A stretch of 23,008 nucleotides of DNA from a virus. Below, piece after piece: positions 3,347 to 20,736 of this stretch; the stretch's first letter is position 1; every line of letters starts with the position of its first letter. The notes below the pieces were generated by a model, which did no database searches, had not been told where the DNA came from, and worked only from the letters and a program-made list of their open reading frames with translations. A program made the position numbers and the translations under genes. The DNA lies in IMG/VR virus record IMGVR_UViG_3300033997_000588, positions 1 through 23,008 of that record; one strand, given 5' to 3'.

Positions 3347-3355
3347 GGGGGCCTC

Positions 3356-3739
3356 ATGGCGAAGATCAAGATCGCGCAGAACCCAACGTTCACCGCCATG
3401 GTGCAGGTTCCGCGCATTGGCACTGAGCCGGCGCCGGTGGAATTCCAGTTCCGCTACATGGACCGCGTGGCCCTGTCCGCAATGTTCGACCGCTGGAACA
3501 AGGCGCGCGACGCCTGGGCGGAAAAGGCCCAGAAGGACGGGGCAACTTGGGAGGAGGTCACCACCGGTGAAATCGCCCTGCAGGCTGAGCAGCTGGGCGA
3601 CATCGTCACAGGCTGGGACCTGGAGGACGAGTTCAGCGCCGAGGCCATCGCCGACCTGGTGCGCACCTGCACCGGCGCACCGAAGGCAGTAATCGACGCC
3701 TACCAAGCCGCCTACAGTCCGGCCCGCCTGGGAAACTGA
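3356..3739 (+). CDS. Tail assembly chaperone, zero-frame product (lambda gpG equivalent)
   Basis: A 127-residue protein; ATG 3356 follows a GGGGG-type Shine-Dalgarno just after the tube gene stop. The N-terminus is beta-like (KIKIAQNPTFTAMVQVPRIGTEPAPVEFQFRYMDR), then helical with a conserved 'GWDLEDEFSAEAIADLV' segment. This is the pattern of tail assembly chaperones of the Phage_TAC families: an N-terminal strand domain, a 'v.gWd...pfs.e.l..L' core, and a C-terminus near the next frame. In lambda, gpG coats the tape measure protein and is not in the virion. The last codons GGA AAC are followed at once by TGA, and these form the slippery site for the G-T product. Lying between tube and tape measure genes is diagnostic. 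Confidence 0.85.
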   Translation: MAKIKIAQNPTFTAMVQVPRIGTEPAPVEFQFRYMDRVALSAMFDRWNKARDAWAEKAQKDGATWEEVTTGEIALQAEQLGDIVTGWDLEDEFSAEAIADLVRTCTGAPKAVIDAYQAAYSPARLGN

Positions 3740-4053
3740 GGGCGGCGGCCCGGGCTTGCTACGAGCGCGGCCCGTCCGCTGAGCAACTGGCGGCGCTGGG
3801 GCTGACCCTTGATGACATCGAGGAGGAGGTAGTGGAGGTCCTGCCGGATGCCTGGCCTGCCTTCCGCCTGTTCGATGCGCTGGGCACACAGTGGCGGGTG
3901 GCTTCGGGCGGCCCGTCCGGCCTGGACTACACCGCCATTCCTGCAACCGCCTCAATGCTCGGCATCAAGCGCCGCGACCTCACCGACATTTTCCCCGATC
4001 TCCGCGTCATGGAGGTTGAGGCCTTGGCCGTCATGGCCGAATCGATGGAGTAG
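3356..4053 (+). CDS. Tail assembly chaperone G-T fusion made by -1 frameshift (T part DUF1799)
   Basis: The second reading frame has no convincing start of its own but is open across the end of G and ends at TAG 4051-4053. Reading G to AAC (3734-3736), slipping back one base and continuing at CTG 3736 gives a 232-residue fusion: 127 residues of G plus 105 of T. The T part begins LRAAARACYERGPSAEQLAALGL and contains 'FRLFDALGTQW' and 'GGPSGLDYTAIPA', the DUF1799 (PF08809) signature found in the T segment of this chaperone family. In lambda, gpGT recruits the tape measure and tube subunits. A GTG at 3832 is a conceivable internal start, but AGGAGGAG lies only about 3 bases before it. The TAG is 3 bases from the tape measure ATG. 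Confidence 0.8.
3730..3736 (+). promoter_or_regulatory. -1 programmed frameshift slippery site GGGAAAC
   Basis: The heptamer reads G GGA AAC in the G frame, a canonical X XXY YYZ site; lambda uses G GGA AAG at the same place. The zero-frame stop TGA follows directly at 3737-3739. After slippage the codons GGG and AAA re-pair and reading continues at CTG 3736. The downstream DNA is very GC rich with complementary blocks (for example CGGGC 3751-3755 with GCCCG 3770-3774) that could form a stimulatory structure. That folding was judged by eye, not computed. Confidence 0.85.
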
Positions 4054-4056
4054 ATC

Positions 4057-7000
4057 ATGACCACCATTGCCTCTCTCGGTCTTCAGATTGACTCCGGTGA
4101 TGCCGTCGAAGCCAAGGACAACCTCGATCAGCTGACGGACGCCGGCAAGCGTAGCGAGGAGTCAGCTGGGCGAACCGGTCGCGCCTGGGAGACTGCCCTG
4201 GGCAGCCTGCAGGGTGACACCCGGCAGATCGTGCAGGAGCTGCAGGCGCTCAACGCCAAGCAGACAGAGTTGGCGCAGCAGATGGCCACCGTGGGACGCG
4301 CCGTTACCAGCGCTTCCACGGCATTCAGCAGCGCCGCGGCGAACATGGGAGCTTTCCGGGCCGAGGCCGCTCAGGCGGGCAAGGTGCAGGAGGCGCTCAC
4401 CAGTGCCACTGATGCCGGTGCCCAGGCTGGCCGGCGCGCCGCCGAATCCGCCGACGAGCAGCAAGCCAGGATTCTGGCCGTGGCCAAGGCCTCGCTGGAG
4501 GCCAGCCAGTACGTTCAATCGCTCAACCGGGCAACCGAGCAGAGCGCCGAGGTCACCGCTCAGGCGAACGCCGTCCTGTCGGATAGTGCCAGCCGTCAGG
4601 CGTCCATCAACAGCCGGGCCCAGGCCCTCATCGCCACCGAGGAGCGTCAGGCGGAGGCAGCGAAGAAGGCTGCCGGCGCGCATCGGGAAGAAGGCCAGGC
4701 GCTCGAGGAGTTGCTGGGCAAGATTGACCCGACTGTCGCAGCAATGAGCCGTCTGGACCAGATGGAACAGAAGCTCAAGGGCTTCCGCGCCAGTGGCGCG
4801 CTCGATGCGGAGACATTCGGCGAGTACCAAGCGAAGATCGACCAAGCGCGTACCGCCCTGGGCGGCGCCGACACCGCGCTGAACAAGACGGGCATGACAG
4901 CCAAAGCAACGGCTGCCGCGCTGCGCGGCGTGCCGGCGCAGTTCACCGATATCGTGGTGTCCCTGCAGGGTGGCCAGGCGCCGCTGACGGTTCTTCTGCA
5001 GCAGGGCGGGCAGCTCAAGGATATGTTCGGCGGCATTGGGCCGGCGGTTCAGGCGCTGGGCGGCTATGTGGCAGGCTTAGTGAACCCGTTCACCGTCGCC
5101 GCCGCAGCAGTTGGCGTGCTGGGTTACGCCTACTACTCCGGCAGCGAGGAGGCGATCGGTTTCCAGAAGGAACTGATCAAGACTGGCAATGCCGCCGGCA
5201 CGACGGCGGACCAGATGTCGGGAATGGCGCGCCAGGTCGCCGCGACCGTCGGCACCACTGGTGCCGCGGCTGAAGTGCTCACCCAACTGGCCGGTAGCGG
5301 CAAGATCGCTTCCGACAGCTTCGTCGAGATCACCGAGGCCACCCTGGTGTGGCGCTCTGCCACCGGCAAGGCGGTCGAGGAGACGGTGGCCGAGTTCGTG
5401 AAGATCGGCAAGGACCCGGTAGCGGCTGCCAAGGACCTGAACGAGCAGTACAACTTCCTGACCGCTGCAACCTACTCGCAGATCGTTGCCTTGAAGGAGC
5501 AGGGCGACACCATCGGGGCGACCAAGCTACTCACCGATACCTACGTCGATACCATCAGGAACCGCAGCAAGGAGGTCACCGAGAACCTGTCGCTGTGGGA
5601 GCGCGGGTGGAAGTCGTTGAAAGGCGAGGTGGCCGCCACTGTCGATGCACTCAATGACGTTGGTCGGGATCAGGACATCGCGAGTCGGATCGTCGACATG
5701 CAACGCCAGGTCGCCGCGGCGCAGAGCGCTGTAAATGCCGACGCTGACGATATCGATGCCCAGAAGAAGCTCACCAACGCCAGCCTTGAGCTGAAAGGTC
5801 TGATTCAGCAGCGCGACACACAGCAGGCGATTGCCCGGGCCCGCGAGCTGGATGTTCAGCGCCAGCAGGCAGCCATCGTTGCAATCGGCAAGATCGATGC
5901 GCTGGAAAAGTCGGCCAGGACCAACGCCGAGAAGCGCGCTGATGCGCTGAAGGAGTACAACAAGTCGCTGGAGGCGATCCGCAAGGTCAGCCCGAACGAC
6001 GAGCGCCTGAAGCCCGAGAACATCGCCCGTGTTCAGGCCGACATCGCCAAGCAGTTCAAGGACCCTGCCGGTCGCACAGGGTCGGTCGACCTCTCAGGCT
6101 TCAACGACCAGAAGAACGCACTGAGCGCCATCCTGGCCGAGTACAAGAACCACCAGAAGGAACTGGATACGGCGCAGAAGGCCGGCCTGATCTCGCAGGA
6201 GTCGTACGCCGCACAGCGGGCCGCAATCATCGAGCAGCAGAAGGCCGAGGTCACGAACGCCTACGAGGCCGAGATCACGGCACTGGAGGAGGCCAAGGGG
6301 CGCAGCAGTACCAGCGCCCAGCAGCGCATCCAGCTTGACCAGAAAATCGCGGATGCCCGCGCTGCCATGGTCAAGGCGCAGAAGGACGCTGATACCGAGC
6401 TCTCGGTGCTGGCGACCAATGAGCAGGGCCGGCTGGCCAAGCAGGCCAGGGCGGTGCAGACCTACACCGACGCCCTCGATCAGCAGGTCCAGGCGCTGAG
6501 GTTGCAGGGGCAGCGCGCCGCCGATGGCCTGGGGCTGGGCGACCGTCAGCGCAGTTTGCAGGATCAGCAGAACGGCATCACCGACCGGATGAACCAGCAG
6601 CGTCTGGACCTGGCCAACCAATATGGCGACGGCTCCCGCGGCATGAGCCTCGATGAGTACAACCAGAAGTTGGCGGCCCTGAGCAAGACCGAAAAGGACC
6701 TGCAGGAAACCACCATCGCCAATTACGACCAGATGACCGCCGCGCAGGGGGATTGGCGCAAGGGGGCGTCGTCGGCTTTCCAGAACTACCTGGAGCAAGC
6801 GCGGGATGTCGCCGGGCAGACGAAAACCCTGTTCAGCAACGCCTTCAGCTCGATGGAAGATGCTGTCGTGAACTTCGCCATGACCGGCAAGTTCTCGTTC
6901 GCGGACTTCACCAAGTCGATACTGGCGGACATGGTGAGAATTGAGACACAGCGCGCAGCGTCTGGCTTGCTCAGCAGCTTGGCCGGCTGGGGTGCTACGG

Positions 7001-7458
7001 CTGCCTCTGCGTGGTTCGGTGGCGGAACGACGTCCGCAGGGTCGACCCAGGCCGGGTACAGCCCGGAGATCATGGACAACTTCGTCTCCGGCCAGCGCGC
7101 TGGTGGCGGCCCGGTAGCAGCTAATTCGCTCTACCAGGTCAACGAGCTTGGGCCTGAACTGCTGAATCAGGGGGGTAAGACCTATCTGATGATGGGGGAG
7201 CAGGGCGGTACCATTACCCCGCTCGGCACTGGGCCTGCTTCAACCCTCACTACCACGAGCACTTCGGGCACGATGATCAGCGTGTCGGCACCGGTCAACG
7301 TGGCCGTCGCGGATCGAAGTGACGAAGGCATGGAGCTCGACCAGACGCTGCTTCAGCAAAACATGCAGAAGCAGATGCAGCTCGCTGCCGAGAAGGCTGT
7401 TGCAGATTCTTGGCGACCCGGCGGAGTGAGCTACCGGAACACTAAAGGAGGGCGCTGA
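4057..7458 (+). CDS. Tail tape measure protein
   Basis: A 1133-residue protein whose ATG is 3 bases after the G-T stop, with GGAG (4047-4050) upstream. It is long, Ala/Gln/Glu-rich and mostly coiled coil, with long heptad-like stretches at about residues 1-290 and 540-920. A hydrophobic block at about residues 325-361 (VNPFTVAAAAVGVLGYAYYSG) is followed by a TMP_2-like domain (TADQMSGMARQVAATVG..). The C-terminal segment at about 908-972 (NYLEQARDVAGQT.., TGKFSFADFTKSILADM) is the conserved lambda tape measure C-terminus. It sets tail length and is ejected during infection; by the usual 0.15 nm per residue the tail would be about 170 nm. It overlaps the next gene by one base (TGATG). Confidence 0.95.
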   Translation: MTTIASLGLQIDSGDAVEAKDNLDQLTDAGKRSEESAGRTGRAWETALGSLQGDTRQIVQELQALNAKQTELAQQMATVGRAVTSASTAFSSAAANMGAFRAEAAQAGKVQEALTSATDAGAQAGRRAAESADEQQARILAVAKASLEASQYVQSLNRATEQSAEVTAQANAVLSDSASRQASINSRAQALIATEERQAEAAKKAAGAHREEGQALEELLGKIDPTVAAMSRLDQMEQKLKGFRASGALDAETFGEYQAKIDQARTALGGADTALNKTGMTAKATAAALRGVPAQFTDIVVSLQGGQAPLTVLLQQGGQLKDMFGGIGPAVQALGGYVAGLVNPFTVAAAAVGVLGYAYYSGSEEAIGFQKELIKTGNAAGTTADQMSGMARQVAATVGTTGAAAEVLTQLAGSGKIASDSFVEITEATLVWRSATGKAVEETVAEFVKIGKDPVAAAKDLNEQYNFLTAATYSQIVALKEQGDTIGATKLLTDTYVDTIRNRSKEVTENLSLWERGWKSLKGEVAATVDALNDVGRDQDIASRIVDMQRQVAAAQSAVNADADDIDAQKKLTNASLELKGLIQQRDTQQAIARARELDVQRQQAAIVAIGKIDALEKSARTNAEKRADALKEYNKSLEAIRKVSPNDERLKPENIARVQADIAKQFKDPAGRTGSVDLSGFNDQKNALSAILAEYKNHQKELDTAQKAGLISQESYAAQRAAIIEQQKAEVTNAYEAEITALEEAKGRSSTSAQQRIQLDQKIADARAAMVKAQKDADTELSVLATNEQGRLAKQARAVQTYTDALDQQVQALRLQGQRAADGLGLGDRQRSLQDQQNGITDRMNQQRLDLANQYGDGSRGMSLDEYNQKLAALSKTEKDLQETTIANYDQMTAAQGDWRKGASSAFQNYLEQARDVAGQTKTLFSNAFSSMEDAVVNFAMTGKFSFADFTKSILADMVRIETQRAASGLLSSLAGWGATAASAWFGGGTTSAGSTQAGYSPEIMDNFVSGQRAGGGPVAANSLYQVNELGPELLNQGGKTYLMMGEQGGTITPLGTGPASTLTTTSTSGTMISVSAPVNVAVADRSDEGMELDQTLLQQNMQKQMQLAAEKAVADSWRPGGVSYRNTKGGR

Positions 7459-7796
7459 TGGCCATCGAGACGTTCAGCTGGCCGACGCATCGCGGCGAAA
7501 CACCAGACATCACCTACCGGGTCCGCGAGTCCAGGTTTGGCGGCGGGTACCGTCAGGTAGTGGGCGACGGTCCTAACAACAAGGAGGACAGCTACCCGAT
7601 CAGCGTGACCGGCACGAAGGCCCAGGTCCGCAAGATCATGGAGTTCTTCGACCGGCACGGCGGCGCCAAGGCCTTCCTTTGGTCTACGCCGCTCGGCGAT
7701 CTGGGCCTGTTCACCTGCGCAGACCCCAAGCCCACCCCTGTGGGCGGCGGTCGATTCAAGGTCTCCGCCACCTTCGAGCGGGCTTTCCACCCATAG
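7458..7796 (+). CDS. M: Minor tail protein M (tail tip)
   Basis: A 112-residue protein whose ATG overlaps the tape measure stop in TGATG, so translation is coupled; AGGAGGGC lies just upstream. Motifs are 'MAIETFSWPTHRGETPDITYRVRESRFGGGYRQVVGDG.NN', 'FFDRHGGAKAFLWSTPLGD' and 'FKVSATFERAFHP'. The 'fG.gY.Q...dG.n', 'F...f.W.pP.g' and 'tf.eaf.p' pattern is that of Phage_min_tail (PF05939), the lambda gpM family, of about 109 residues. gpM forms a ring of the tail tip with L, K, I and J. The order H-M-L-K matches lambda. Confidence 0.9.
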   Translation: MAIETFSWPTHRGETPDITYRVRESRFGGGYRQVVGDGPNNKEDSYPISVTGTKAQVRKIMEFFDRHGGAKAFLWSTPLGDLGLFTCADPKPTPVGGGRFKVSATFERAFHP

Positions 7797-7805
7797 GGAG
7801 CGAGT

Positions 7806-8555
7806 ATGTCGCTGATCAAAGACATCCAGACCCTGGAGCCTGGCAGCGAAGTGCTGCTGTTCGAGCTGGATGGCTCGGACTTTGGTGCCGACACGCTGCG
7901 TTTCCACGGGCACGCAATTCCACACACGCCTCAGGAGCTTGCAGCGGCTGGCGCGAACGCCGACCAGCTGCCGGCCAAGTCGATCTGGTGGCAGGGCAAC
8001 GAGTACGGTGCCTGGCCCATGCAGATCGAGGGCATCGAAGCGAACTCGGACGGTACCGCCGTGCGCCCAACGCTGACGGTGGGCAACGTCAACGGAAGGA
8101 TCACTGCGCTGTGCGTGGCCTTCGACAACCTGCTCGAGTTCAAGCTGACCATGCGCCACACGATGGCGCGTTACCTGGATGCGGTGAATTTTCCGGCAGG
8201 CAACCCGGAGGCCGACCCAACCGAGGAAGCCATTGAGGTCTGGTACATCGATCAGAAGGTGTCGGAGAACGGCAAGACGGTGGCCTGGGAGCTGGCCAGC
8301 CCCGGTGATGTCGGTGGAGAGACGATTGGCCGGCAGATGACCCAGCTTTGTCACTGGGCGATGACCGCCGGCTACCGCGGCCCCAACTGCGGATACACCG
8401 GCCCTTACTTCGACCTCGACGGCAACCCAACGGTTGACCCGGCCAAGGACCAGTGCAACGGCTGTCTCGACTCAGGCTGTACCGTTCGCTTTGGCCAGGG
8501 CAACCAACTGCCCTTTGGCGGCTTCCCGGCTGTTTCCCTCATCGCACGGAGCTGA
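7806..8555 (+). CDS. L: Minor tail protein L, predicted Fe-S tail-tip protein
   Basis: A 249-residue protein (lambda gpL is 232) with GGGAG shortly before ATG 7806. The N-terminal domain begins 'LIKDIQTLEPGSEVLLFELDGSDFGADTLRFHGH' and continues through 'WWQGNEYGAWPMQIEGIE', the Phage_tail_L (PF05100) pattern. The C-terminal domain has Cys at 182, 195, 217, 220 and 225, arranged like the cysteines of lambda gpL that hold a [4Fe-4S] cluster. Cys103 lies in the N-terminal domain and is probably not a ligand. The CNGCLDSGC cluster carries one more Cys than the four needed, so which four serve is not decided by sequence. The protein sits in the tail-tip ring between M and J. Its stop is 2 bases before the ATG of K. 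Confidence 0.9.
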   Translation: MSLIKDIQTLEPGSEVLLFELDGSDFGADTLRFHGHAIPHTPQELAAAGANADQLPAKSIWWQGNEYGAWPMQIEGIEANSDGTAVRPTLTVGNVNGRITALCVAFDNLLEFKLTMRHTMARYLDAVNFPAGNPEADPTEEAIEVWYIDQKVSENGKTVAWELASPGDVGGETIGRQMTQLCHWAMTAGYRGPNCGYTGPYFDLDGNPTVDPAKDQCNGCLDSGCTVRFGQGNQLPFGGFPAVSLIARS

Positions 8556-8557
8556 CC

Positions 8558-9313
8558 ATGCGCAAACACATCCTCGCCGCCGTGCAAGCGCACGCTGCGG
8601 CGGAGTACCCGCGCGAGTGCTGCGGGCTGATCATCGCTGTCGGCCGCTCCCACAGGTATATGCCGTGTGAAAACGCCGCCGCCGACCCTGCTGAAGAGTT
8701 CCGGATTTCGCCGGAGCAGTATGCAGAAGCGGAAGACCAGGGCGAGGTGATCGGCATCGTGCACTCACACCCTGACGCTACCAGCAGGCCGTCACCGCGC
8801 GACCTGGCTATGTGCGAGGCCACTGGTCTACCCTGGTACATCCTGTCGTGGCCGGAGGGCGATCTGCGGAGCATCACCCCGACCGGACACACTCCGCTGC
8901 TGGGGCGGCCGTTCGTGCACGGCGCATGGGACTGCTGGCAGGTCTGTGCCGACTGGTACAAGCGGGAGTGGGGCCTGGAGTTTCCGGTCTATGCCCGGGA
9001 GGAGGGATGGTGGGAGCGGGCAGACGGCCCGAGCCTTTACGAGCAGGCCTACGAGTCCGCCGGGTTCTACCAGGTTAGCCAGCCGCAGCGCGGCGACATG
9101 ATCGTCATGGCCGTTGGCCGAACGGCTCACCCGAACCATGCTGGCATCTACCTCGGCGCTGACGCTCGGCTGCCGGAGGAAGCGGGGGAGGTCTTCGGGC
9201 CTGGACCGTTCATGCTGCACCACCTGCTGGGGCGGCCATCAGAAATCATCGTGTTCGGCGGGCCCTGGCTCGACCGGACGCGCCTTGTGTTGCGTCATCG
9301 GGACGCGAAGTGA
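8558..9313 (+). CDS. K: Tail-tip protein K: JAMM plus NlpC/P60 hydrolase
   Basis: A 251-residue protein starting at ATG 8558 directly after the L stop. Longer starts would lie inside L. The N-terminal Prok-JAB/JAMM domain has the full metal-site motif: Glu20 in EYPRECCGL, then H69-x-H71-x7-S79-x2-D82. The C-terminal NlpC/P60 domain has Asp-Cys at 125-126 in WDCWQVC and His194 in HPNHAGIYLG, the expected catalytic Cys and His of a papain-like peptidoglycan peptidase. Two-domain proteins of this kind are lambda gpK homologues. They are needed for tail-tip maturation and probably local cell-wall cleavage during DNA injection. Both active sites look intact. In lambda, K is followed directly by I; here the accessory block 9338-12783 lies between them. 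Confidence 0.92.
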   Translation: MRKHILAAVQAHAAAEYPRECCGLIIAVGRSHRYMPCENAAADPAEEFRISPEQYAEAEDQGEVIGIVHSHPDATSRPSPRDLAMCEATGLPWYILSWPEGDLRSITPTGHTPLLGRPFVHGAWDCWQVCADWYKREWGLEFPVYAREEGWWERADGPSLYEQAYESAGFYQVSQPQRGDMIVMAVGRTAHPNHAGIYLGADARLPEEAGEVFGPGPFMLHHLLGRPSEIIVFGGPWLDRTRLVLRHRDAK

Positions 9314-9337
9314 AGCGGCTAGGCCGCGGGAGGACGC

Positions 9338-9457
9338 ATGCTTAAGAGTGCCATCAAACGATCAATTCAAGCGGAGTGCAAGCGCAGAGCTGCGAGCGAT
9401 GAGGTGCTCGCAGCCAAGATCGACCAACTTAGGAAGCCGAGTTCCCCGAGCGTTTGA
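9338..9457 (+). CDS. Possible 39-residue basic peptide gene after K
   Basis: A short frame MLKSAIKRSIQAECKRR... (ends SSPSV) with GGGAGGA (9328-9334) well spaced before the ATG, and a small GCGGC-TAG-GCCGC hairpin (9315-9327) in front of it. The peptide is lysine/arginine rich and predicted helical. It resembles nothing I know. It overlaps the 3' end of the convergent gene 9429-9656 by 29 bases. It may be a real small phage protein, or the leftover start of a gene cut by insertion of the accessory block. The evidence is the ribosome binding site alone. Confidence 0.4.
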   Translation: MLKSAIKRSIQAECKRRAASDEVLAAKIDQLRKPSSPSV

Positions 9458-9656
9458 TGTCGTCGATGAAATTCTGCAGGAATAAGTCAAATACCTCTTT
9501 GTTCTGAGCCTGCTTGTAATCGCTGCCGATCGTAGAAGCGAGTCTCGCTACGTAGAGCTCTTCATCTAGCGCGCCGCTTTGTTTGAGGCTTGCCGCAAGG
9601 CAGCGTACCGCAATGCTGATGGCTTTGATTTCACTCTGAAGCACTTCGTCACTCAT
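9429..9656 (-). CDS. Hypothetical helical protein, second gene of a minus-strand pair
   Basis: A 75-residue protein, MSDEVLQSEIKAISIAVRCL..., predicted all-helical. The start at 9656 is set by a strong AGGAGGTC Shine-Dalgarno on the minus strand; a longer frame to 9761 would run into the upstream gene. It lies 71 bp downstream of 9728-9976 in the same orientation, so the two are probably one transcript read away from the HEPN gene. The end is convergent with K and the small ORF at 9338. I do not recognise a family; the length and amphipathic helices would fit a small regulatory or inhibitor protein, but that is not shown. Confidence 0.65.
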   Translation of the reverse strand: MSDEVLQSEIKAISIAVRCLAASLKQSGALDEELYVARLASTIGSDYKQAQNKEVFDLFLQNFIDDIKRSGNSAS

Positions 9657-9727
9657 TTGACCTCCTAGGTCACAAGTGCCCCAGTCCATGGGCTTTCCGG
9701 CAACGGACCGGGGCGGTTCGTTTGGGA

Positions 9728-9976
9728 TCAGCTGGTTTTGGTTCGCACGATTAGGCGCCATAAAATCGGAACTGATTGGTCCTGATGTTGATGTCTGTTC
9801 TGCGGAGGGAATGGATCTCCGGCGTTCGAAGTGATCTCGTCCATGCAGCCTTCGCAGCGGTATATTCCAGAGACAGGAACCCGATCCGCTGGCTCATAAA
9901 GCGTGTTCCAGTGATCGTGACCTGGTGTTGTGGTTTCGGTTATGAACTGTCTGGTGTATTTCGTTACGAACGCCAT
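9728..9976 (-). CDS. Small conserved Cys/His protein of a widespread Pseudomonas type
   Basis: An 82-residue protein starting at 9976, with AAGGAG seven bases upstream on the minus strand (an in-frame Met at 10000 lacks one). It has 'KYTRQFITETTTPGHDHWNTLYEPADRVPVSGIYRCEGCMDEITSNAGDPFPPQNRHQHQ' and ends 'PILWRLIVRTKTS' . The 'P.SGIY.C.GC..E.TSN.GDPFPPQN.HQH....I.W.L.VRT' pattern is one I have met in many Pseudomonas chromosomes and prophages, sometimes labelled 'protein L'; its function is unknown. The CxxC pair plus the HQH suggests a small metal-binding fold. It is the first gene of the minus-strand pair and is divergent from the HEPN gene, with the first 67-bp repeat between them. Confidence 0.7.
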   Translation of the reverse strand: MAFVTKYTRQFITETTTPGHDHWNTLYEPADRVPVSGIYRCEGCMDEITSNAGDPFPPQNRHQHQDQSVPILWRLIVRTKTS

Positions 9977-9997
9977 GGCAACTCCTTTTATTGAAGG

Positions 9998-10064
9998 CAC
10001 AACGCTACTACGCTGCCGACCTAGCCGGTTACTGGCTTTCCGTCCAGGGTGGATGGGTGGACAG
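9998..10064 (+). repeat. 67-bp element, copy 1, bounding the accessory island
   Basis: This shares 49 of 67 positions, without gaps, with 12334-12400. Identical blocks are CACAACGCTACTA at the left end, TACTGGCTTTCC in the middle, then TCCA, TGGATG and TGGACAG at the right end. An imperfect hairpin CGTCCA-GGG-TGGATG (10041-10055, one G-T pair) is kept in both copies. It lies between the divergent genes 9728-9976 and 10129-10761, 65 bp before the HEPN start. Read as codons, both copies give QRYY...YWLS...G...DR, so a decayed coding piece is an alternative to a regulatory or recombination site. Confidence 0.75.
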
Positions 10065-10128
10065 ATTGGAAGTGTCGTCGATGCCGTGGCAGGCTTCGAG
10101 TGATCGAAAAAAATGTGGAGCGTCGCCA

Positions 10129-10761
10129 GTGATAAGTGCGGATGAGAAGCGGAAGCAGTGCATTAGTGCGATGGGGGCGGATCTTGGGGCGATGTACTGC
10201 GACTTAAACGACCACCTGCTGGATATCTTGTTGCTATGGAAACAGTACGAGCAGCTTTTCGGCGTGGATCCCGAGACCGTGCAGCTTTTGAACGACTCAG
10301 CGCCTACGTTCTTTGGCATTTTGCAGGCACAGCTTTGGGACGGAGTAATGCTAGGCATTTCGAGGCTTACAGACCCTCCGGTTAGCGCGGGCAAGAAAAC
10401 TCTTTCAATCAAAGCCATTCCGCCTCTGGTCAGCGACCTGAATGCTCGGGCGAGGGTAGAAGCCGCTATTGATACAGCATCGACCAATGCCGAGTTCACA
10501 AGGACCCACCGTAACAAGCGGATCGCGCACAATGACCTAGTGCACATACAAGATCGCATTGCTAATCCTTTGCCCCCTGCAAGCCGTCAGAAAATCAAGG
10601 CGGGATTGGACTCAATTTGCGCGGTGCTTGAGGTGCTCAATGGTCACTATCGCCAGTCGACAATGCTCTACGACGACATCGTTTATGATGGTGGAGCAGG
10701 TAGCGTGGTTAGCTTGCTTCGCGACGGATTACTGCGTCGAGAGCAAGAGCTTGACGGATAA
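10129..10761 (+). CDS. HEPN-domain protein, AbiU2-like putative RNase
   Basis: A 210-residue helical protein. The GTG at 10129 is preferred, with GGAG (10117-10120) eight bases upstream and a usual family-like start ISADEKRKQ; ATG 10081 is an alternative. Features in order are helix 'LNDHLLDILLLWKQYEQLFG' (about 26-45), 'LLNDSAPTFFGILQAQLWDGVMLGISRLTDPP' (53-84), 'TLSIKAIPPLV', the motif R128-N-K-R-I-A-H134, then 'LPPASRQKIKAGL' and a C-terminal 'LLRDGL'. The SRLTDPP segment and RNx4H motif match the HEPN AbiU2-like family (PF18734). HEPN RNases cut RNA using this Arg/His pair, and AbiU2 belongs to a lactococcal abortive infection system. An anti-phage role here is inference. The gene is AT-richer than tail genes and followed by its own terminator. 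Confidence 0.85.
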   Translation: MISADEKRKQCISAMGADLGAMYCDLNDHLLDILLLWKQYEQLFGVDPETVQLLNDSAPTFFGILQAQLWDGVMLGISRLTDPPVSAGKKTLSIKAIPPLVSDLNARARVEAAIDTASTNAEFTRTHRNKRIAHNDLVHIQDRIANPLPPASRQKIKAGLDSICAVLEVLNGHYRQSTMLYDDIVYDGGAGSVVSLLRDGLLRREQELDG

Positions 10762-10779
10762 TCACTGAGCCCTGGCTAG

Positions 10780-10806
10780 AAAAGCCCAGCCCCGCGGTGG
10801 GCTTTT
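10780..10806 (+). terminator. Rho-independent terminator after the HEPN gene
   Basis: AAAAGCCCA (10780-10788) pairs perfectly with TGGGCTTTT (10798-10806) around a 9-base loop. The right arm runs into five T in a row (10803-10807). It lies 18 bp after the HEPN stop, so the HEPN gene is probably a single-gene unit. Confidence 0.85.
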
Positions 10807-10873
10807 TGCATCTGGAGCGAACCGTCGCCTAGCCGTGGTAGATTGCGAGGCTGCCACTTATCGGGGATAGCCT

Positions 10874-11506
10874 ATGACCTTCAACGTGATGATAAGCATG
10901 GACGATTGCGTAGTCCTATGCGCAGACCGCAGTGCGTTTTCGGTTTATGAAGATGGTCGATCGGAGCTGTCCGAGCAACGCGTCAGGAAAATCACCGAGA
11001 CCCCGCATGGATTTATCACGGCATCGGGCTGGGCTGACCTGATACAGCCAGTGAAGGAACGATTTGCGGGCGAAGCGCCAGCAGATGTAGATGCCATGCT
11101 CTCGATAATTCAGGCAGAACAAGACCTGTTCAGCAAACTAAGCCCAGAGTTGGCCCGATCATGGATTCCTCGATCCAGCTGGAAGTTGTCTATTCCCATG
11201 AGCCGAGGGGTGGTTGCTGCTTTCTATGATCATGAAAACCGAGGCTTTTCTGGCCTTGAAGCAGGCAGGACAATCTTTACCTTTCCGTCAGAGACGCCGA
11301 TCGATGATCGGGAACACGTGGAAGGTTTATTCTGCAGAGGACAGTACGTAAAACCGTCTGGAGAAACGGTTTCCGATGCGATTAATCAGGTGCTGGCGAG
11401 TGTCACCTATCTGAGGGGGCGCGGCATCTCCATCTCGCAAGAGATTGACGTTGCGATTCATTTGGGCGGCTCTCGGAGATTGCTGGAACTGATGGCCCAG
11501 GATTAA
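10874..11506 (+). CDS. Proteasome-beta-like Ntn-hydrolase
   Basis: A 210-residue protein with GGGGA (10863-10867) before the ATG. Three regions read like a proteasome beta / HslV fold. (1) 'MTFNVMISMDDCVVLCADRSAF': Thr directly after Met, the strand, then Asp at mature position 17, followed by 'RVRKI' with Lys at mature position 38, equivalent to Lys33 of the proteasome allowing for a 5-residue insertion, and 'GFITASGWADLIQPVKERF'. (2) 'LSIPMSRGVVAAFYDHENRGFSGLEAGRTIFTFPSE', like the second sheet. (3) 'SDAINQVLASVTYLRGRGISISQEIDVAIHLG', like the C-terminal helix and 'IDVA.I' strand. Met removal would expose the catalytic Thr1. The substrate is unknown, and no partner ATPase is visible in the window. 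The gene sits between the HEPN and NucS-like genes. The family call is by eye. Confidence 0.75.
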   Translation: MTFNVMISMDDCVVLCADRSAFSVYEDGRSELSEQRVRKITETPHGFITASGWADLIQPVKERFAGEAPADVDAMLSIIQAEQDLFSKLSPELARSWIPRSSWKLSIPMSRGVVAAFYDHENRGFSGLEAGRTIFTFPSETPIDDREHVEGLFCRGQYVKPSGETVSDAINQVLASVTYLRGRGISISQEIDVAIHLGGSRRLLELMAQD

Positions 11507-11521
11507 GTGAAGCCCGAAATG

Positions 11522-11544
11522 AAAAGCCCGGCGCTTGGCCGGGC
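11522..11544 (-). terminator. Rho-independent terminator of the NucS-like gene
   Basis: GCCCGGC (11526-11532) pairs with GCCGGGC (11538-11544) around a 5-base loop. On the minus strand the stem is followed by TTTT (complement of 11522-11525), 5 bp beyond the minus-strand stop at 11550. It also lies between the two convergent genes, and may shorten the plus-strand Ntn-hydrolase transcript, though there is no T run on that side. Confidence 0.75.
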
Positions 11545-11549
11545 CTGGG

Positions 11550-12254
11550 TCAGTCTTCCACCGCAACTGCATTGAAAGCGAATTGCACCTTGTACTCAAC
11601 GAGTGACAAGTCCGTTATGGCCTCCGCCGCGTAACGGACGGCGTCCGGGAATTCGCTGGCGATCAGCATTCCGCGCGGGCGTTGACCATCCTGCCTGGCG
11701 TACCAGCCCAGATAGCGGGCAATTTGCCCTACGGCAGCATCCTTTGCCTGACCAACCTTTAGTTCGATGACGACACGGCGGCCGGTAGCATCCTCCGCAA
11801 GAATATCGACTCGGCCTACATCGATGCTTACCTGGCGATCAATGAACCGAAGGCCCTTTTCAATGCTGTCGAGACTACGAACCAAGTGAGTTTCGACATC
11901 GCGTTCTAGGCTGATAGAGGTCTCTACAAGTTCCTCGATATTGGCTTCTTCTGCATCACCGAAGTCATCCGTCTCTGTATCGGCGGATGGTGCCCAGGTA
12001 TTTACCCCGTGAACGTCAGGATTGTATCGATGGAAGCGACCATCTTCGGAGCGATAGAAGAAACGATCAGCCCATTTGTGGTGGATGTAGGCCTTGGGGT
12101 TATTAACAGTGCAGGCATAGAAATGAGCGGCGATCGCTCCAGGCTTCCATCGCTTTGGGAATTCGCGGTCGATGTAGTCCTTCATTTCTTGTCTTGTAGC
12201 GCCATCGGGTGCTTGCTCTATGTAGCTTCGCAGGGCTTCTGCCAGCGTTGTCAT
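11550..12254 (-). CDS. NucS-like PD-(D/E)XK endonuclease with N-terminal extension
   Basis: A 234-residue protein with AGGAAG eight bases before ATG 12254 on the minus strand. Residues 1-75 form a helix-rich domain (LAEALRSYIEQAPDGATRQEMKDYIDREFP...) resembling a winged-helix or DNA-recognition module, followed by an acidic linker (about 89-110, TETDDFGDAEEANIEE). Residues about 115-230 are a NucS-type nuclease: Glu121, Asp150 in VGRVDILAED, E164-L-K166 in VVIELK, and Q177-x2-RYLGWY. These are the expected acidic metal ligands and lysine. NucS family enzymes cut branched, flapped or mismatched DNA. A short phage-borne fusion with a new N-terminus would suit nuclease defence, but no self-protection partner or PCNA/clamp-binding tail was seen. 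An inverted repeat TTAACT (12278-12283)/AGTTAA (12297-12302) lies just upstream and could be an operator. Confidence 0.85.
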   Translation of the reverse strand: MTTLAEALRSYIEQAPDGATRQEMKDYIDREFPKRWKPGAIAAHFYACTVNNPKAYIHHKWADRFFYRSEDGRFHRYNPDVHGVNTWAPSADTETDDFGDAEEANIEELVETSISLERDVETHLVRSLDSIEKGLRFIDRQVSIDVGRVDILAEDATGRRVVIELKVGQAKDAAVGQIARYLGWYARQDGQRPRGMLIASEFPDAVRYAAEAITDLSLVEYKVQFAFNAVAVED

Positions 12255-12333
12255 GCAATGTCTTCCTGATCTGAGAGTTAACTGGATAAGTTGTTTAGTT
12301 AAGTGGGTGGTAGCTGCGAGGCATCCGAGATAT

Positions 12334-12400
12334 CACAACGCTACTATGACCCCGTTCGGTTCTGCTACTGGCTTTCCATCCACACTGGATGCCTGGACAG
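12334..12400 (+). repeat. 67-bp element, copy 2, right boundary of the accessory island
   Basis: This is the second copy of the element at 9998-10064, same orientation, same length, 49 of 67 bases identical. The hairpin CATCCA-CAC-TGGATG (12377-12391) is perfect here. The copies start 2336 bp apart and the HEPN, Ntn-hydrolase and NucS-like genes lie between them. This copy lies 80 bp from the NucS-like start and 39 bp before the lipoprotein ATG. Just after it is an extended -10-like TGG-TACAGT (12407-12415) without a good -35, which may drive the lipoprotein gene. Confidence 0.75.
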
Positions 12401-12438
12401 GCCGGCTGGTACAGTCGCCGTTTTCAAGGAGTGATCAC

Positions 12439-12783
12439 ATGCGAATTCTGATCGGGGCAGTGGGACTGGTATTGCTGGCGGGGTGCGTGTCACCAAGCGA
12501 TCTGAAAGGTAATTCACCGACGACCAAAGCCGTTACCAAGAAATCACCAAAGGAGTACGCGCTATGTGTACTCCCCCAATGGCAGGATGCTCGATCTGAA
12601 GCGACCATGTCAGAAACTCAGAATGGCTACCGTCTTGTCGTTGCTGCGATGAACCTAACAGACGAACTACTTGAAGTCTCGAAGACGGACGCAGGTAGCT
12701 CGGTTGTATTTTATCAACGGGTTGCATGGATGCCCGGCGTCGGGCGTTCCGCGATAGAGAGTGCGGTAAAGTCGTGCCTTTGA
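12439..12783 (+). CDS. Small lipoprotein (lysogenic conversion / superinfection exclusion candidate)
   Basis: A 114-residue protein with AAGGAG (12426-12431) seven bases before ATG 12439; a longer frame from 12253 would cover the repeat element and has no ribosome site. The N-terminus MRILIGAVGLVLLAGC is a typical type II signal peptide with lipobox LAGC and lipidated Cys16. Residue 17 is Val, so there is no Asp+2 inner-membrane retention signal and outer-membrane sorting is likely. The mature part is short with one internal Cys in EYALCVLPQWQDARSEATMSE and a C-terminal Cys two residues from the end, a possible disulphide. Phage lipoproteins such as Cor of phi80/HK022 mask host receptors; a similar role is guessed only from size, location and its own terminator at 12801. 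Confidence 0.75.
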   Translation: MRILIGAVGLVLLAGCVSPSDLKGNSPTTKAVTKKSPKEYALCVLPQWQDARSEATMSETQNGYRLVVAAMNLTDELLEVSKTDAGSSVVFYQRVAWMPGVGRSAIESAVKSCL

Positions 12784-12800
12784 CATAGCGCCACCTATCA

Positions 12801-12821
12801 ACCGCCTCCGGGCGGTTTTTT
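12801..12821 (+). terminator. Terminator-like hairpin directly before gene I (repeated cassette)
   Basis: ACCGCC (12801-12806) pairs with GGCGGT (12811-12816) around TCCG, followed by a T tract (12816-12821). The Shine-Dalgarno GGAGGAAA and the ATG of I follow within 20 bp. The same layout recurs at 13454 and 20698, and in degenerate form at 2651. Here it could end the lipoprotein transcript. Confidence 0.75.
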
Positions 12822-12838
12822 ATTGCCTGGAGGAAAGT

Positions 12839-13435
12839 ATGGCTGCAACGGTAGCGCATTACGCGCAGATGACGACGATCAAGCTTTCCGGCTCGCTGGC
12901 CCAGAAATTTGGCCGAGTGCATCGCCGCCAGTTGGAAAGTGGAGAGGGGTGGGAGGCATTCAAAGCGTTGCGCGTAACGCTTCCCGGTTTTGTAGAGGAA
13001 ATCAGGCGGCTTGATGCCCTAGGGATCCGCTTTGCCGTATTTCGCAACCGAAAAAATGTAGGCGCGGATGACTTAGGGCGCCGTGGCACCAAAGAGATTC
13101 GGATTGTTCCTCTTATTGGCGGGAGCAAACGCGGAGGCCTTCTTCAAACGATCATCGGCACCGTAATCTTCGTTGCGTCCTTTTTCGTTCCTGGGATGCA
13201 AGGGTGGGGGCAGTCTCTCGGCGCATCGCTTGCCCTGGGCGGCGTCATCCAGATGCTCAGCCCCCAAGCCAAGGGCCTGTCCCAAAGCGCTGCACCCGAG
13301 AACCTGCCGAGTTACGCCTTCGGCAGCGCCAAAAACACTACTGCCAGCGGCAACCCTGTCCCGATCTGTATCGGCGAGCGCCGCTGGGGTGGCGCGATAA
13401 TCTCTGCCTCCATTGAGGCACAAGATAAGGCCTAG
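12839..13435 (+). CDS. I: Tail assembly protein I
   Basis: A 198-residue protein with GGAGGAAAGT before ATG 12839. It begins with 'TTIKLSGSLAQKFGRVHRRQLESGEGWEAFKALRVTLPGFVEEIR', a ubiquitin-like beta-grasp pattern of the lambda gpI family. The middle has a hydrophobic pair (GLLQTIIGTVIFVASFFVPGMQGWGQSLGASLALGGVIQMLSP), and the C-terminus has the 'NLPSYAFGSAKNTTASGNPVPICIGERRWGGAIISA' segment, diagnostic of gpI. gpI joins the tail-tip complex with J and is processed in some phages. In lambda it directly follows K; here the two are separated by 3.5 kb of accessory genes. The stop TAG is followed by a second hairpin and gene J. Confidence 0.9.
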   Translation: MAATVAHYAQMTTIKLSGSLAQKFGRVHRRQLESGEGWEAFKALRVTLPGFVEEIRRLDALGIRFAVFRNRKNVGADDLGRRGTKEIRIVPLIGGSKRGGLLQTIIGTVIFVASFFVPGMQGWGQSLGASLALGGVIQMLSPQAKGLSQSAAPENLPSYAFGSAKNTTASGNPVPICIGERRWGGAIISASIEAQDKA

Positions 13436-13453
13436 GGCCGATTCAGCGTACAG

Positions 13454-13474
13454 ACCGCCTCCGGGCGGTTTTTT
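13454..13474 (+). terminator. Terminator-like hairpin directly before gene J (repeated cassette)
   Basis: ACCGCC (13454-13459), loop TCCG, GGCGGT (13464-13469), then six T (13469-13474), followed by a CGGAGGAAAG Shine-Dalgarno and ATG 13492. It is nearly base-for-base identical to 12801-12821 and its downstream region. There is no accessory gene here, so it would lie inside the late operon and must be read through, perhaps by late antitermination. Confidence 0.75.
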
Positions 13475-13491
13475 GTTGCCCGGAGGAAAGC

Positions 13492-16400
13492 ATGGGCCCG
13501 ACAGATCACCTGGACATCACAGGCGCCAAGGGCGGCGAGAGCAAGCCAAAATCCCCCGTTGAGGCGCCGGACAGCCTGCAGTCGACCAACATCGCCAAGC
13601 TGCTGCTGGCTGTGGGCGAGGGGGAGTTTGACGGCACACCTACCGACCGCGAAATCTACCTCGACAACACGCCGATCATGGATACCAGCGGCAACGTGAA
13701 CTTCCCGGGCGTGAAGTGGGAGTGGCGCCGAGGCACTATCGAGCAGGACTACATCCAGGGCATCCCGTCGGTAGAGAACGAGACGACTGTCAACGTCGAA
13801 CTGCGCAGCGATAACCCGTTCACCCGGGCGCTGAGCAACATCCAGCTGTCGGCCGTGCGCGTGCGTATGTCGTGGCCGCGTCTGGCCAAGCAGGACAGTA
13901 GCGGGAACACCAACGGTTACCGAATCGAGTACGCCATCGATATCGCCACTGACGGCGGGGCGTATGCCGAGGCTCACCGCGGAGCCGTCGATGGCAAGAC
14001 CACCAATGGGTATCAGCGCTCCGTGCGCGTGAACCTGCCGGCGGCTACCTCCGGCTGGATGCTGCGCGTACGACGTATCACTCCGAACGCCAACAGCGGT
14101 ACTGTGGCCGACACGATGACCATTGCCGGCTATACCGAGATCATCGACGAGAAGCTGCGTTACCCAAACACCGCGCTGCTGTACATCGAATTCGACGCGC
14201 AGCAGTTCCAGAACATTCCGGCCGTGACCGTGAAGTGCAAGGCCAAACGTTGGCCTGTTCCGACCAATTATGACCCCGTGACCCGCACCTACACTGGCGT
14301 GTGGGATGGCACCTTCAAGCAGGCCTGGACCAACAACCCCGCCTTTGTGACCTACGGCCTGTGCGTCGAGGATCGCTTCGGCCTGGGCAAACGCATCAAG
14401 TCATGGATGGTCGACAAGTGGGAGATGTACCGCATCGCCCAGTATTGCGACCAGCTGGTGCCGAACGGGCAGGGCGGTCAGGAGCCTCGCTTCCTGTGCG
14501 ACATGAACCTGCAGGGCCGCGCCGAGGCCTGGACGCTGCTGCGCGACCTGTCGGCCATTTACCGGGGCATGGTGTACTGGGCTCACGGCTCGCTGTTCAT
14601 GCAGGCGGACATGCCGCGTGCCCAGGACATCGACTACGTGTTCACCCGTGCCAATGTCATCGACGGTGAGTTCGTATACGGCGGTGCCGAGCGCAACACG
14701 CACTACAGCCGCGCCCTGGTCAGCTACGACAACCCTGCCAACAACTACGACACCGATGTGATCCCGGTGACCGACCTGGCGCTGCAGCGGCGGTACCGCG
14801 ACCGGCCAATCGAGATCTCGGCCATCGGCTGCACGCGCGCCTCCGAAGCCCAGCGCCGGGGGAGGTGGGCACTGCTGAGCAACAGCCAGGACCGCACTGT
14901 CAGCTTCAAGACCGGCATGGAAGGCCGGATCCCGCTGCCTGGCTACGTCATCCCTGTGGCGGATGAGCTGGTGGCCGGCCGCCCGAACGGTGGCCGGATC
15001 TCGTCCGCTGCCGGCCGTGTGGTCACCCTTGATCGCGACACGCCGATCAAAGCAGGTGACCGCTTAATCGTGAACCTGCCCAACGGCACCGCCCAGGCGC
15101 GCACCGTGCAGTCTGTGGCCGGGCGCGCGGTGACGGTGACGACTGAATACAGCGTGCAGCCAGAGCCCGAACTGCAGTGGGCAATCGACTACGACGACCT
15201 GGCGGTGCAGCTCTTCCGAGTGCTGAAGACCACTCGCACCCAGGAAGGTGAGTACGAGATCACTGCGCTTGAGTTCAACCCCAGCAAGTTCGCAGCAATC
15301 GACACCGGCGCCAAGTTGGACGAACGCCCGATCAGCGTCATTCCGGTCACTACCGTAGCGCCCCCGGCCAGCGTGTCGCTGACCTCGGCCTATGCCGTGG
15401 ATCAGGGGATCGCCGTCAGCACCATGACGATCAGCTGGCCGGCGGTCCAGGGGGCGGTCGCTTACGATGTGGAATGGCGCAAGGACAACGGCAACTGGAC
15501 TCGCCTGCAGCGTACTGGTGCAACCTCAATCGATGTGGTGGGCATCTATGCTGGCTCCTACCTGGCCAGGGTTCGGGCCGTCAGCTCGTTCGACATAACG
15601 TCGATCTGGCGGGATTCGACGCTCACTGAGCTGAAAGGCAAGGAGGGCACACCGCCTTCGGTAACCTACCTGACGGCCGATCCGCTGATCTTCGGGATAT
15701 CGCTCAAGTGGGGAATCCCACCAGGCGCCGAGGACACCCAGCGGACGGAGATCTGGTACGGCCCAACGAACAGCCTGGAGGCGGCAACGAAACTCGCCGA
15801 TCTGGCCTACCCGCAGACCGAGTACGTGATGCAAGGCCTGAAGGCCGGTGTCTCGTTCTTCTTCTGGGCGCGCCTGGTGGACCGGACCGGCAACATCGGC
15901 CCGTGGTATCCCATCGGTGGTGGCGTGTTTGGCCAGTCTGGGGCGGATGCAAGCCCAGTATTGGAACTGATCACTGGGAAAATCACCGAAAGCGAGCTCG
16001 GGCAGAATCTGCTGAGCGAGATCGAGAAGATTTCCGGCGAAGGCCCGGAGTCGGTGAATGGCCGTATCGAGGCGGCCAAGCAGGAGCTGGAGGACCTGAT
16101 CACTGACTTGACTGACCCGCTCGAGTACGTGGCCACCAACGCCTACGCCAAGGACGATGCCGTGCGCAGCGGACAGCGCCTGTACATGGCCATTGCGCCG
16201 GTACCGGCGGCTGCCAACGGCAGCAACGCCCCGCCGAACCCGGCTTACTGGGTCGATATCGGCAGCATTGCCTCGACGGCAAATGGCCTGGCGCAGGCGG
16301 TGGCCAAGAACACCACGGACATCGCGACGGTTGATGGGAAAGTGACGGTGAATGCGGCCATGCTTCAGGCCGTGCAGTCGGCGTACCGTGACGAAAACCC

Positions 16401-17649
16401 AGAAGGCGCGCTCACCGATGCGCTACGGGGCTGGGACACCCTGGCCAAGGTCTCGGAAGAGTCGCGCACCCGCGCCACGCAGAACGAGGCCATGGCCAGC
16501 CGGATGACAACGGTTGAGACCAGTGTCGGCGAGACCAATGGCAGCATCCGCAGCCTCGAGCAGACCGTCGTCACGAATGAGCAGGCCACGGCCAGCCGAT
16601 TCCTGGATGTGAACACCAAGGTTGGGGCCAACTCGGCCAGCCTCTCGGTGCTGGAAAAGACTGTCACCGACAACGAATCGTCGACGGCCTCGCGCCTCCA
16701 AACGGTCAATGCCCGGGTCGATTACGCTAATCAGGCGCTCGATCAGGAAAAGCTCGATCGAGACAACGCAGTAACGGGTGAGCGCCAGGCGCGGGAAGCG
16801 GCTGTCGAGAACGAAGCGACAGCCCGAGCCGATGGCGACGAAGCCCTAGGGTTATTGGTTGACACCGTCAGCGCTCAGGTGGACGAGAACGCCAGCAAGA
16901 TTCAGACGGTGGAGCACGCCCAGGCCGACACCGACCAGGCGGTTGCCTCGATGCGCACCACCATCGGGGCGGTTTACACGACTGGGCGGGACGACAACGC
17001 CGAGGGTGAGCTTGCCGGGTCGCTAAAGGCTTGGGAAAGCACTGCCAAGATCGCCGAGGAGTCGAAGACGCGGGCCACCGCAATTGACGCCCAGGCGAAG
17101 AAAACCGAAACGCTGGAGGTGTCGTTCAATTCGGCGCTCGATAGAGCCAACGGTGAGATACAGAAAACCAGCGCCTCGGTGCAGGTCACCAGCCAGGCCT
17201 TGGCTGCACTTGACGACAAAGCCAGCACCATGTGGTCGGTCAAGATGCAGGTCAATGCCCAAGGCCAGTACGTTGCCGCGGGCATTGGCCTCGGCATCGA
17301 GAACGGTCCGGCCGGGCTGCAGAGCAAGTTCCTTGTATCGGCAGACCTCTTCGCGGTGGTCAACGGCATCAACGGTACGCTTTCCTCGCCGTTCGCAGTT
17401 CAGGGCGGGCAGGTGTTCATGAATGAGGCCTTCATCCAAGACGGCACCATTACGAACGCCAAGATAGGCAGCTACATCAGCTCGACCAACTACGTCGCCG
17501 GCCAACAAGGCTGGATCTTGAACAAGAGCGGCACGTTCGAGATCAACGGCACGGTGGCGGGGCAGGGGCGCTTGCTGATCAACAACCAGCGCCTGCGTAT
17601 CTACCACGCCAACGGCAACCTGGCGATTGACCTGGGAGTGAGCGTATGA
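13492..17649 (+). CDS. J: Host specificity / tail-tip fibre protein J
   Basis: A 1385-residue protein with CGGAGGAAAG before ATG 13492. Residues about 25-620 align by eye with lambda gpJ ('STNIAKLLLAVGEGEFDG', 'YTEIIDEKLRYPNTALLYIEFDAQQF', 'VPTNYDPVTRTYTGVWDGTFK', 'CTRASEAQRRGRWALL'). About 624-805 hold two fibronectin-III-like domains. About 879-927 (AYAKDDAVRSGQRLYMAI..., PAYWVDIG) resemble a CBM5/12 carbohydrate-binding fold. About 950-1250 are coiled coil with internal repeats. The C-terminus, from about 1264, has the lambda-J-like 'GQVFMNEAFIQDGTITNAKIG' and 'YVAGQQGWILNKSGTFEINGTV' segments. gpJ closes the tail tip and binds the host receptor, so the C-terminal part probably sets host range. 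It overlaps the next gene by 4 bases (ATGA). Confidence 0.95.
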   Translation: MGPTDHLDITGAKGGESKPKSPVEAPDSLQSTNIAKLLLAVGEGEFDGTPTDREIYLDNTPIMDTSGNVNFPGVKWEWRRGTIEQDYIQGIPSVENETTVNVELRSDNPFTRALSNIQLSAVRVRMSWPRLAKQDSSGNTNGYRIEYAIDIATDGGAYAEAHRGAVDGKTTNGYQRSVRVNLPAATSGWMLRVRRITPNANSGTVADTMTIAGYTEIIDEKLRYPNTALLYIEFDAQQFQNIPAVTVKCKAKRWPVPTNYDPVTRTYTGVWDGTFKQAWTNNPAFVTYGLCVEDRFGLGKRIKSWMVDKWEMYRIAQYCDQLVPNGQGGQEPRFLCDMNLQGRAEAWTLLRDLSAIYRGMVYWAHGSLFMQADMPRAQDIDYVFTRANVIDGEFVYGGAERNTHYSRALVSYDNPANNYDTDVIPVTDLALQRRYRDRPIEISAIGCTRASEAQRRGRWALLSNSQDRTVSFKTGMEGRIPLPGYVIPVADELVAGRPNGGRISSAAGRVVTLDRDTPIKAGDRLIVNLPNGTAQARTVQSVAGRAVTVTTEYSVQPEPELQWAIDYDDLAVQLFRVLKTTRTQEGEYEITALEFNPSKFAAIDTGAKLDERPISVIPVTTVAPPASVSLTSAYAVDQGIAVSTMTISWPAVQGAVAYDVEWRKDNGNWTRLQRTGATSIDVVGIYAGSYLARVRAVSSFDITSIWRDSTLTELKGKEGTPPSVTYLTADPLIFGISLKWGIPPGAEDTQRTEIWYGPTNSLEAATKLADLAYPQTEYVMQGLKAGVSFFFWARLVDRTGNIGPWYPIGGGVFGQSGADASPVLELITGKITESELGQNLLSEIEKISGEGPESVNGRIEAAKQELEDLITDLTDPLEYVATNAYAKDDAVRSGQRLYMAIAPVPAAANGSNAPPNPAYWVDIGSIASTANGLAQAVAKNTTDIATVDGKVTVNAAMLQAVQSAYRDENPEGALTDALRGWDTLAKVSEESRTRATQNEAMASRMTTVETSVGETNGSIRSLEQTVVTNEQATASRFLDVNTKVGANSASLSVLEKTVTDNESSTASRLQTVNARVDYANQALDQEKLDRDNAVTGERQAREAAVENEATARADGDEALGLLVDTVSAQVDENASKIQTVEHAQADTDQAVASMRTTIGAVYTTGRDDNAEGELAGSLKAWESTAKIAEESKTRATAIDAQAKKTETLEVSFNSALDRANGEIQKTSASVQVTSQALAALDDKASTMWSVKMQVNAQGQYVAAGIGLGIENGPAGLQSKFLVSADLFAVVNGINGTLSSPFAVQGGQVFMNEAFIQDGTITNAKIGSYISSTNYVAGQQGWILNKSGTFEINGTVAGQGRLLINNQRLRIYHANGNLAIDLGVSV

Positions 17650-20697: not shown

Positions 20698-20720
20698 ACC
20701 GCCGCCTGGCGGTATTTTTT
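20698..20720 (+). terminator. Terminator-like hairpin directly before the endolysin (repeated cassette)
   Basis: ACCGCC (20698-20703), loop GCCT, GGCGGT (20708-20713), then A and seven T (20715-20721). TGGAGAAAA and the endolysin ATG follow. The preceding 145 bp (20553-20697) hold nothing else I can support. Confidence 0.75.
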
Positions 20721-20736
20721 TGCCTGGAGAAAACCC

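Follow-up and report, generated by a model that had tools for sequence, protein, structure and literature searches.

A conserved intergenic element as a probable shared promoter or operator of minus-strand cargo genes in Pseudomonas prophages

The 67-nt repeat found in the window, that is, the whole 23,008-base IMG/VR record analyzed here, belongs to a family of elements in Pseudomonas prophages that probably serve as a shared promoter or operator of minus-strand cargo genes (morons). Read toward the minus gene, the proposed module would begin with the dyad TCCANNNTGGA framed by CTG and CAG, followed by CCAGT-R-R-C around -35. A free spacer, a sigma70-type -10 (TANNNT, usually TAGCNT) and a transcription start about 6-7 nt further on would come next. 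The start codon of the minus gene would then be reached 20-35 nt from the element edge, or at about 70 nt if a leader hairpin intervenes. A DNA-binding protein on the dyad/CCAGT region may activate or gate this promoter. Gene and element together would form a mobile cassette, and the right-hand plus gene would use signals of its own. We infer all three central parts of this scheme, namely transcription from the element, the role of TANNNT as a -10, and a regulator at the dyad, from sequence patterns. The first-pass annotation had proposed a promoter or operator, a recombination site, or a decayed gene piece. Our results best support a promoter or operator for the left, minus-strand gene; the gene piece is rejected, and a recombination seam may exist as a by-product.

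The cargo island and the two copies in the window

PHROG matches identified the record as the lambda-type tail module of a Pseudomonas phage, with the tape measure gene at 4057-7458, tail gene I at 12839-13435, and tail gene J at 13492-17649. A K-type JAB/NlpC gene lies at 8453-9313, and the stretch between K and I is a GC-poor cargo island with genes on both strands. On the minus strand it carries two small genes and a NucS_C/PDDEXK gene; on the plus strand are a HEPN_AbiU2 gene, a gene without matches, and a phrog_914 gene. The GC content is 0.53-0.58 at 9001-13000, compared with 0.61-0.67 at 3001-9000 and 13001-17000, and a different base composition is one of the marks by which morons are recognized. 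In addition, another repeat (D1), consisting of a terminator and a ribosome-site block, was observed at 12801-12842 and 13454-13495, just before I and J, and at a third, later place (20698-20739).

The two copies of the element, at 9998-10064 and 12334-12400, are aligned on the plus strand as a repeat and are read on the minus strand in the proposed module. They match at 49 of 67 positions (73%) without gaps, while the next-best offset in the window gives 33 of 67, which confirms the repeat as first described. Copy 2 scored E = 8.5e-7 in the 23-kb record, which has no third copy. The -10-like TAGCGT, located where the element family has its fixed-place TANNNT, is at 10002-10007 in copy 1 and, with its position defined in the same way, at 12338-12343 in copy 2 (both minus strand). 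The ACTGG box, which reads CCAGT on the minus strand, is at 10031-10035 and 12367-12371, and the dyad TCCANNNTGGA, the proposed regulator site, is at 10043-10053 and 12379-12389.

Both copies are located at head-to-head gene junctions within the K-I island, in agreement with the divergent neighbors originally reported. Copy 1 lies between a minus gene at 9728-9976 and a plus gene at 10129-10761. The minus moron starts 21 nt from the element edge and codes for an 82-aa, weakly YjzC-like protein with CxxC/HxH (phrog_15514). A second minus moron in the same run (9429-9656, minus strand) codes for a 75-aa protein, for which neither the Pfam scan nor the PHROG scan gave a match. The plus moron codes for a HEPN_AbiU2 protein, whose domain corresponds to 65-231 of a longer ORF, 9991-10761. 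This mechanically called, TTG-start ORF crosses copy 1, and the HEPN domain is encoded downstream of the element. Copy 2 lies between a minus moron at 11550-12254, which carries a NucS_C/PDDEXK-type nuclease domain and starts 79 nt from the element edge, and a lipoprotein-like plus moron at 12439-12783 (phrog_914). The plus gene has an extended -10-like TACAGT at 12410-12415 (plus strand), outside the element. This minus gene, with NucS_C/YhcG-type nuclease and DUF7669 domains that are also found at locus L041, is a candidate defence gene. In the terminator search, a terminator-like hairpin was found directly 3' of the nuclease gene (11524-11546, minus strand), but no such hairpin closes the pair of minus genes at 9429.

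Anatomy and distribution of the element

The consensus of 62 nonredundant and 61 right-half-chosen copies reads AGGCACAA[CA]GCTACTA[CT]G, about 15 hypervariable bases, and TACTGG..TTCC[AG]TCCANNNTGGATG......CAG. The spacer is hypervariable in sequence and nearly fixed in length (15-16 nt), and is followed by the ACTGG box and the TCCANNNTGGA dyad. Since CTACTA and TACTGG were part of the pattern used to choose the first sets of copies, the invariance of these letters in those sets is meaningless. The family was therefore re-sampled, one set being chosen by the right half only and another by the left block alone. [TC]ACTGG was present at the expected spacing in 73 of the 77 left-block-selected places, and three of the other four miss it by one base. 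Similarly, CTACTA was kept in 69 of 84 right-half-chosen places, and most of the others show a near variant by eye. The left block, spacer, ACTGG box and dyad form one unit. A right half without a left half occurs at three places (L221, L248, and L274), and six cassettes between I and J have a modified right dyad arm (TGTA); these cases fit poorly with a strict one-unit promoter.

The hairpin that had been described in both window copies is conserved as sequence and not as covarying structure: TCCA/TGGA is present, and pair frequencies in the dyad of the 62 nonredundant copies are about those expected from column composition alone. Diverged elements with a leader were also observed beside another gene family at five loci that look chromosomal or island-like (L181 at 4604, L182 at 4050, L308, L312, and L317), and in the distant copy of L181 and L182 the dyad has grown to a perfect 33-nt palindrome. 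Two loci, L161 and L177, were left out of the gene-context counts, since the match looks like coding DNA with a fortuitous fit to the pattern; the matches at L111, L154, and L101 are probably fortuitous as well.

The first-pass annotation had suggested a search of Pseudomonas phages, and the element does recur there. Five GenBank phage records match, including AUS531phi and OQ658365 of P. aeruginosa, in which the copies also lie downstream of K and upstream of I. IMG/VR holds 50 stretches with both blocks and 77 exact matches to the left block alone, and looser patterns gave at least 119 stretches. Of 40 pattern stretches in the GTDB species genomes, 25 were Pseudomonas-type, including one listed under Pantoea sp. 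Ap-967. The remaining 15 were judged to be chance matches (E > 1e-3 or no score against the profile). In a sample of the genus, 55 of 298 Pseudomonas genomes contained a match at E <= 0.001, with 1-3 matches each. We took 40 places, strong and weak, from part of this match list. Lambda-type tail genes were nearby in 26 of them, with the element on the tail-gene strand in all 26, and the remaining 14 places were in other or unclear contexts. Where a genome locus had both K and I, the element lay between them in 19 of 20 cases, which is the kind of insertion expected of a moron. Forty viral records contained 1-2 copies each, with uniform orientation within a record. A host repeat family spread over the chromosome, raised earlier as an alternative source of the repeat, was rejected, as was a REP-type repeat, because the right-half pattern gave only 0-3 matches per genome in 23 genomes, in addition to the 1-3 matches in the 55 genomes above.

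The minus-strand gene, promoter signals and competing readings

A minus-strand ORF start with a ribosome site was located 15-40 nt from the left edge in 32 of 55 elements, a set not chosen by the left block, compared with 19 of 504 random positions. A minus gene lies within 130 nt of the element in 111 of 133 contexts, the distance being 20-39 nt for 59 of these genes and 70-74 nt for 36. The other 22 contexts have no called minus gene, and some of these run off contigs. The minus genes fall into 37 unrelated sequence clusters, and the right-hand plus genes into 44. The largest minus-gene cluster (37 of the 111) codes for CxxC/HxH proteins of about 81-88 aa that are weakly YjzC-like (below the Pfam cut-off), and its member in the window matches phrog_15514. 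The cargo includes the nuclease and HEPN_AbiU2 in the window, and AbiTii and peptidase M78 at other loci. The right-hand gene may be a moron or belong to the tail module (J or a major tail gene), and in the tail-gene cases a terminator-like hairpin separates it from the element. The gap between I and J contains a minus gene and an element in 6 of 151 loci (597-714 nt), with the end of the element directly at the J terminator. Among the 145 gaps without the element, 103 are <=70 nt, again the pattern of insertion expected of a moron, and the remaining 42 hold other inserts. Based on the near-fixed distance, the I-J cassettes, and the terminator before right-hand tail genes, we assign the element to the minus gene, as a piece that moves together with it.

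Such traffic could also arise if the element were a recombination or insertion site for the exchange of cargo cassettes, without a promoter role, which we consider unlikely. The clean occupied and empty sites between I and J agree with this, as do the many combinations of gene families on the two sides of the element (71 different ones in 87 contexts), the low GC of the island, and its two same-orientation copies 2.3 kb apart. However, the center of the element is hypervariable, without a conserved crossover core, and conservation follows the start of the minus gene. An unsystematic inspection showed neither a dedicated recombinase nor a corresponding element closing the cassette on its 3' side. 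Moreover, homologous recombination over any common promoter would shuffle genes likewise. An integron attC site has complementary RYYYAAC and GTTRRRY end boxes and works with an integrase. This candidate was rejected, as the right end of the element is a conserved CAG without a GTTRRRY box.

Several signals are consistent with a promoter directed toward the minus gene. In 58 of the 61 elements selected by their right half, TANNNT occurs on the minus strand at a fixed position (51 with the main offset and 7 with the adjacent one); the selection had made no reference to this block. On the plus strand, no offset of TANNNT exceeds 15 of the 61. A sigma70 -10 depends most on the three bases that are defined in TANNNT, and the place of this motif is compatible with a transcription start about 17-32 nt before the minus gene. 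No conserved -35 hexamer was found in the elements; instead, the region around -35 is occupied by CCAGTRRC, and the dyad spans about -47 to -59. A sigma70 promoter scan of 9250-13550 returned 0 sites, and a hand-written sigma70 matrix scored the element itself below shuffles (plus strand z -4.8, minus strand z -1.9). Thus, the element does not qualify as a canonical sigma70 promoter with its TTGACA-like -35, 16-18 nt spacing and TATAAT-like -10, and only the TANNNT is kept. In view of the missing TTGACA-like -35, a DNA-binding protein at the dyad/CCAGT region is proposed, and the promoter probably needs such a regulator. With the same matrix, right flanks scored below shuffles on the minus strand (z -2.2) and above them on the plus strand (z 3.7), so the minus gene has no other recognizable promoter to the right of the element. 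Sigma54 and ECF promoters, compared by eye with their consensi, were rejected on spacing or key bases.

Elements that are separated from the minus start by about 70 nt are usually followed there by a second conserved motif. It is a leader hairpin CCCC[GA]GTCC...GGACTGGGG, often with the palindrome GACCTAGGAGGTC around the ribosome site. In the window, both precede the second minus moron, the hairpin in its 5'-UTR at 9678-9714 and the palindrome, which contains its ribosome site, at 9659-9671 (both minus strand). The leader profile matches 185 places in 184 loci, before unrelated minus genes, and no Rfam match to the leader was found. On the sense strand, its stem has 69 G.U against 21 A.C cells, and the observed pairing was reached by 11 of 500 shuffles. 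These results give modest support to the leader acting as an RNA of the minus strand.

The element might itself be transcribed, as a regulatory RNA in the 5'-UTR of the minus genes, whose true promoter would then lie further to the right. It abuts the ribosome site of the minus gene, and the separate, adjoining leader hairpin resembles a minus-strand RNA in its pairing. We nevertheless regard this as improbable, since consensus fold energies are near zero on both strands and pairing is close to independence. In particular, where the dyad varies between A and G, the resulting pair is G.T on the plus strand but A.C on the minus strand, which would break the stem of a minus-strand RNA. Minus-strand sigma70 signals are not enriched to the right of the element, and scanning of the window gave no Rfam match to it. 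The Rfam family int-alpA was rejected as the identity of the element; its match in L128 falls elsewhere in the contig and looks different.

A role as operator, enhancer or insulator of the right-hand plus gene is less probable still. The enrichment of plus-strand sigma70-like signals just to the right of the element would suit such a role, together with the copies that consist of the right half only and the LexA-box-like sequences in the plus-gene promoter region of L121, L155, and L140 (by eye). However, the start of the plus gene is scattered (16-191 nt) whereas that of the minus gene is nearly fixed, and the terminator-like hairpin intervenes in front of a right-hand J or major tail gene. 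Finally, there is almost no likelihood that the element is a fragment of coding sequence, as the QRYY...YWLS frame common to both window copies had hinted, because the three codon positions are equally variable (mean entropy 0.54/0.51/0.51 in 62 copies), a frame-breaking spacer indel occurs in 6 of the 62 nonredundant copies, stop-bearing copies exist in every frame, and the left flank coincides with the beginnings of genes unrelated to one another.

Relation to known systems and implications

Morons are known to have promoters of their own, and in acr-aca operons accessory genes are placed under a promoter with an Aca-bound inverted repeat. The loci described here are similar in having accessory genes and a putative promoter with an inverted repeat, but Pfam found no HTH family in the seven window proteins, and an acr-aca regulated promoter was rejected on this basis. 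The tab gene of Pseudomonas phage JBD26 is reported to be an 83-residue minus-strand moron in the late operon, which is expressed in the prophage from its own promoter for defence (PMC10884400). The present genes are likewise small minus-strand genes among late genes, their own promoter being putative. Unlike the element loci, tab is located between the terminase genes (PMC10884400), and neither the element profile nor the leader profile scored significantly in 12.2 kb of JBD26 including tab. Furthermore, one module accompanies dozens of unrelated genes here, genus-wide.

In archaeal viruses, unrelated small anti-defence genes are reported under one highly conserved promoter and operator, which was used as bait (PMC11065993). 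Those are TATA/BRE early promoters with a motif derived for each virus, whereas here one motif extends over many phages of a genus in bacterial prophages (PMC11065993). The hotspots of P2 and P4 prophages also carry swappable defence cargo at fixed places, similar to our loci, and a common promoter element is not mentioned in the available text of that report (PMC9122126). No description of the element was found in open-licence PMC, where 13 of its letters matched unrelated papers only.

A wider proposal, which we offer as a tentative one, is a genus-wide regulon in which unrelated Pseudomonas prophages and islands place swappable defence and cargo genes under a single activator or repressor, encoded by host or phage. 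A gene would become cargo by landing behind the module, and the module, with or without the leader, may be a plug-in expression slot and a bait for new anti-phage genes. One conserved promoter/operator for 37 unrelated cargo-gene clusters across a genus would, if true, be unusual. The expression of the cargo would then be coordinated by a common factor, which could be found. The element would also be a search key for prophage defence genes, mostly unnamed, as the conserved promoter is for archaeal viruses.
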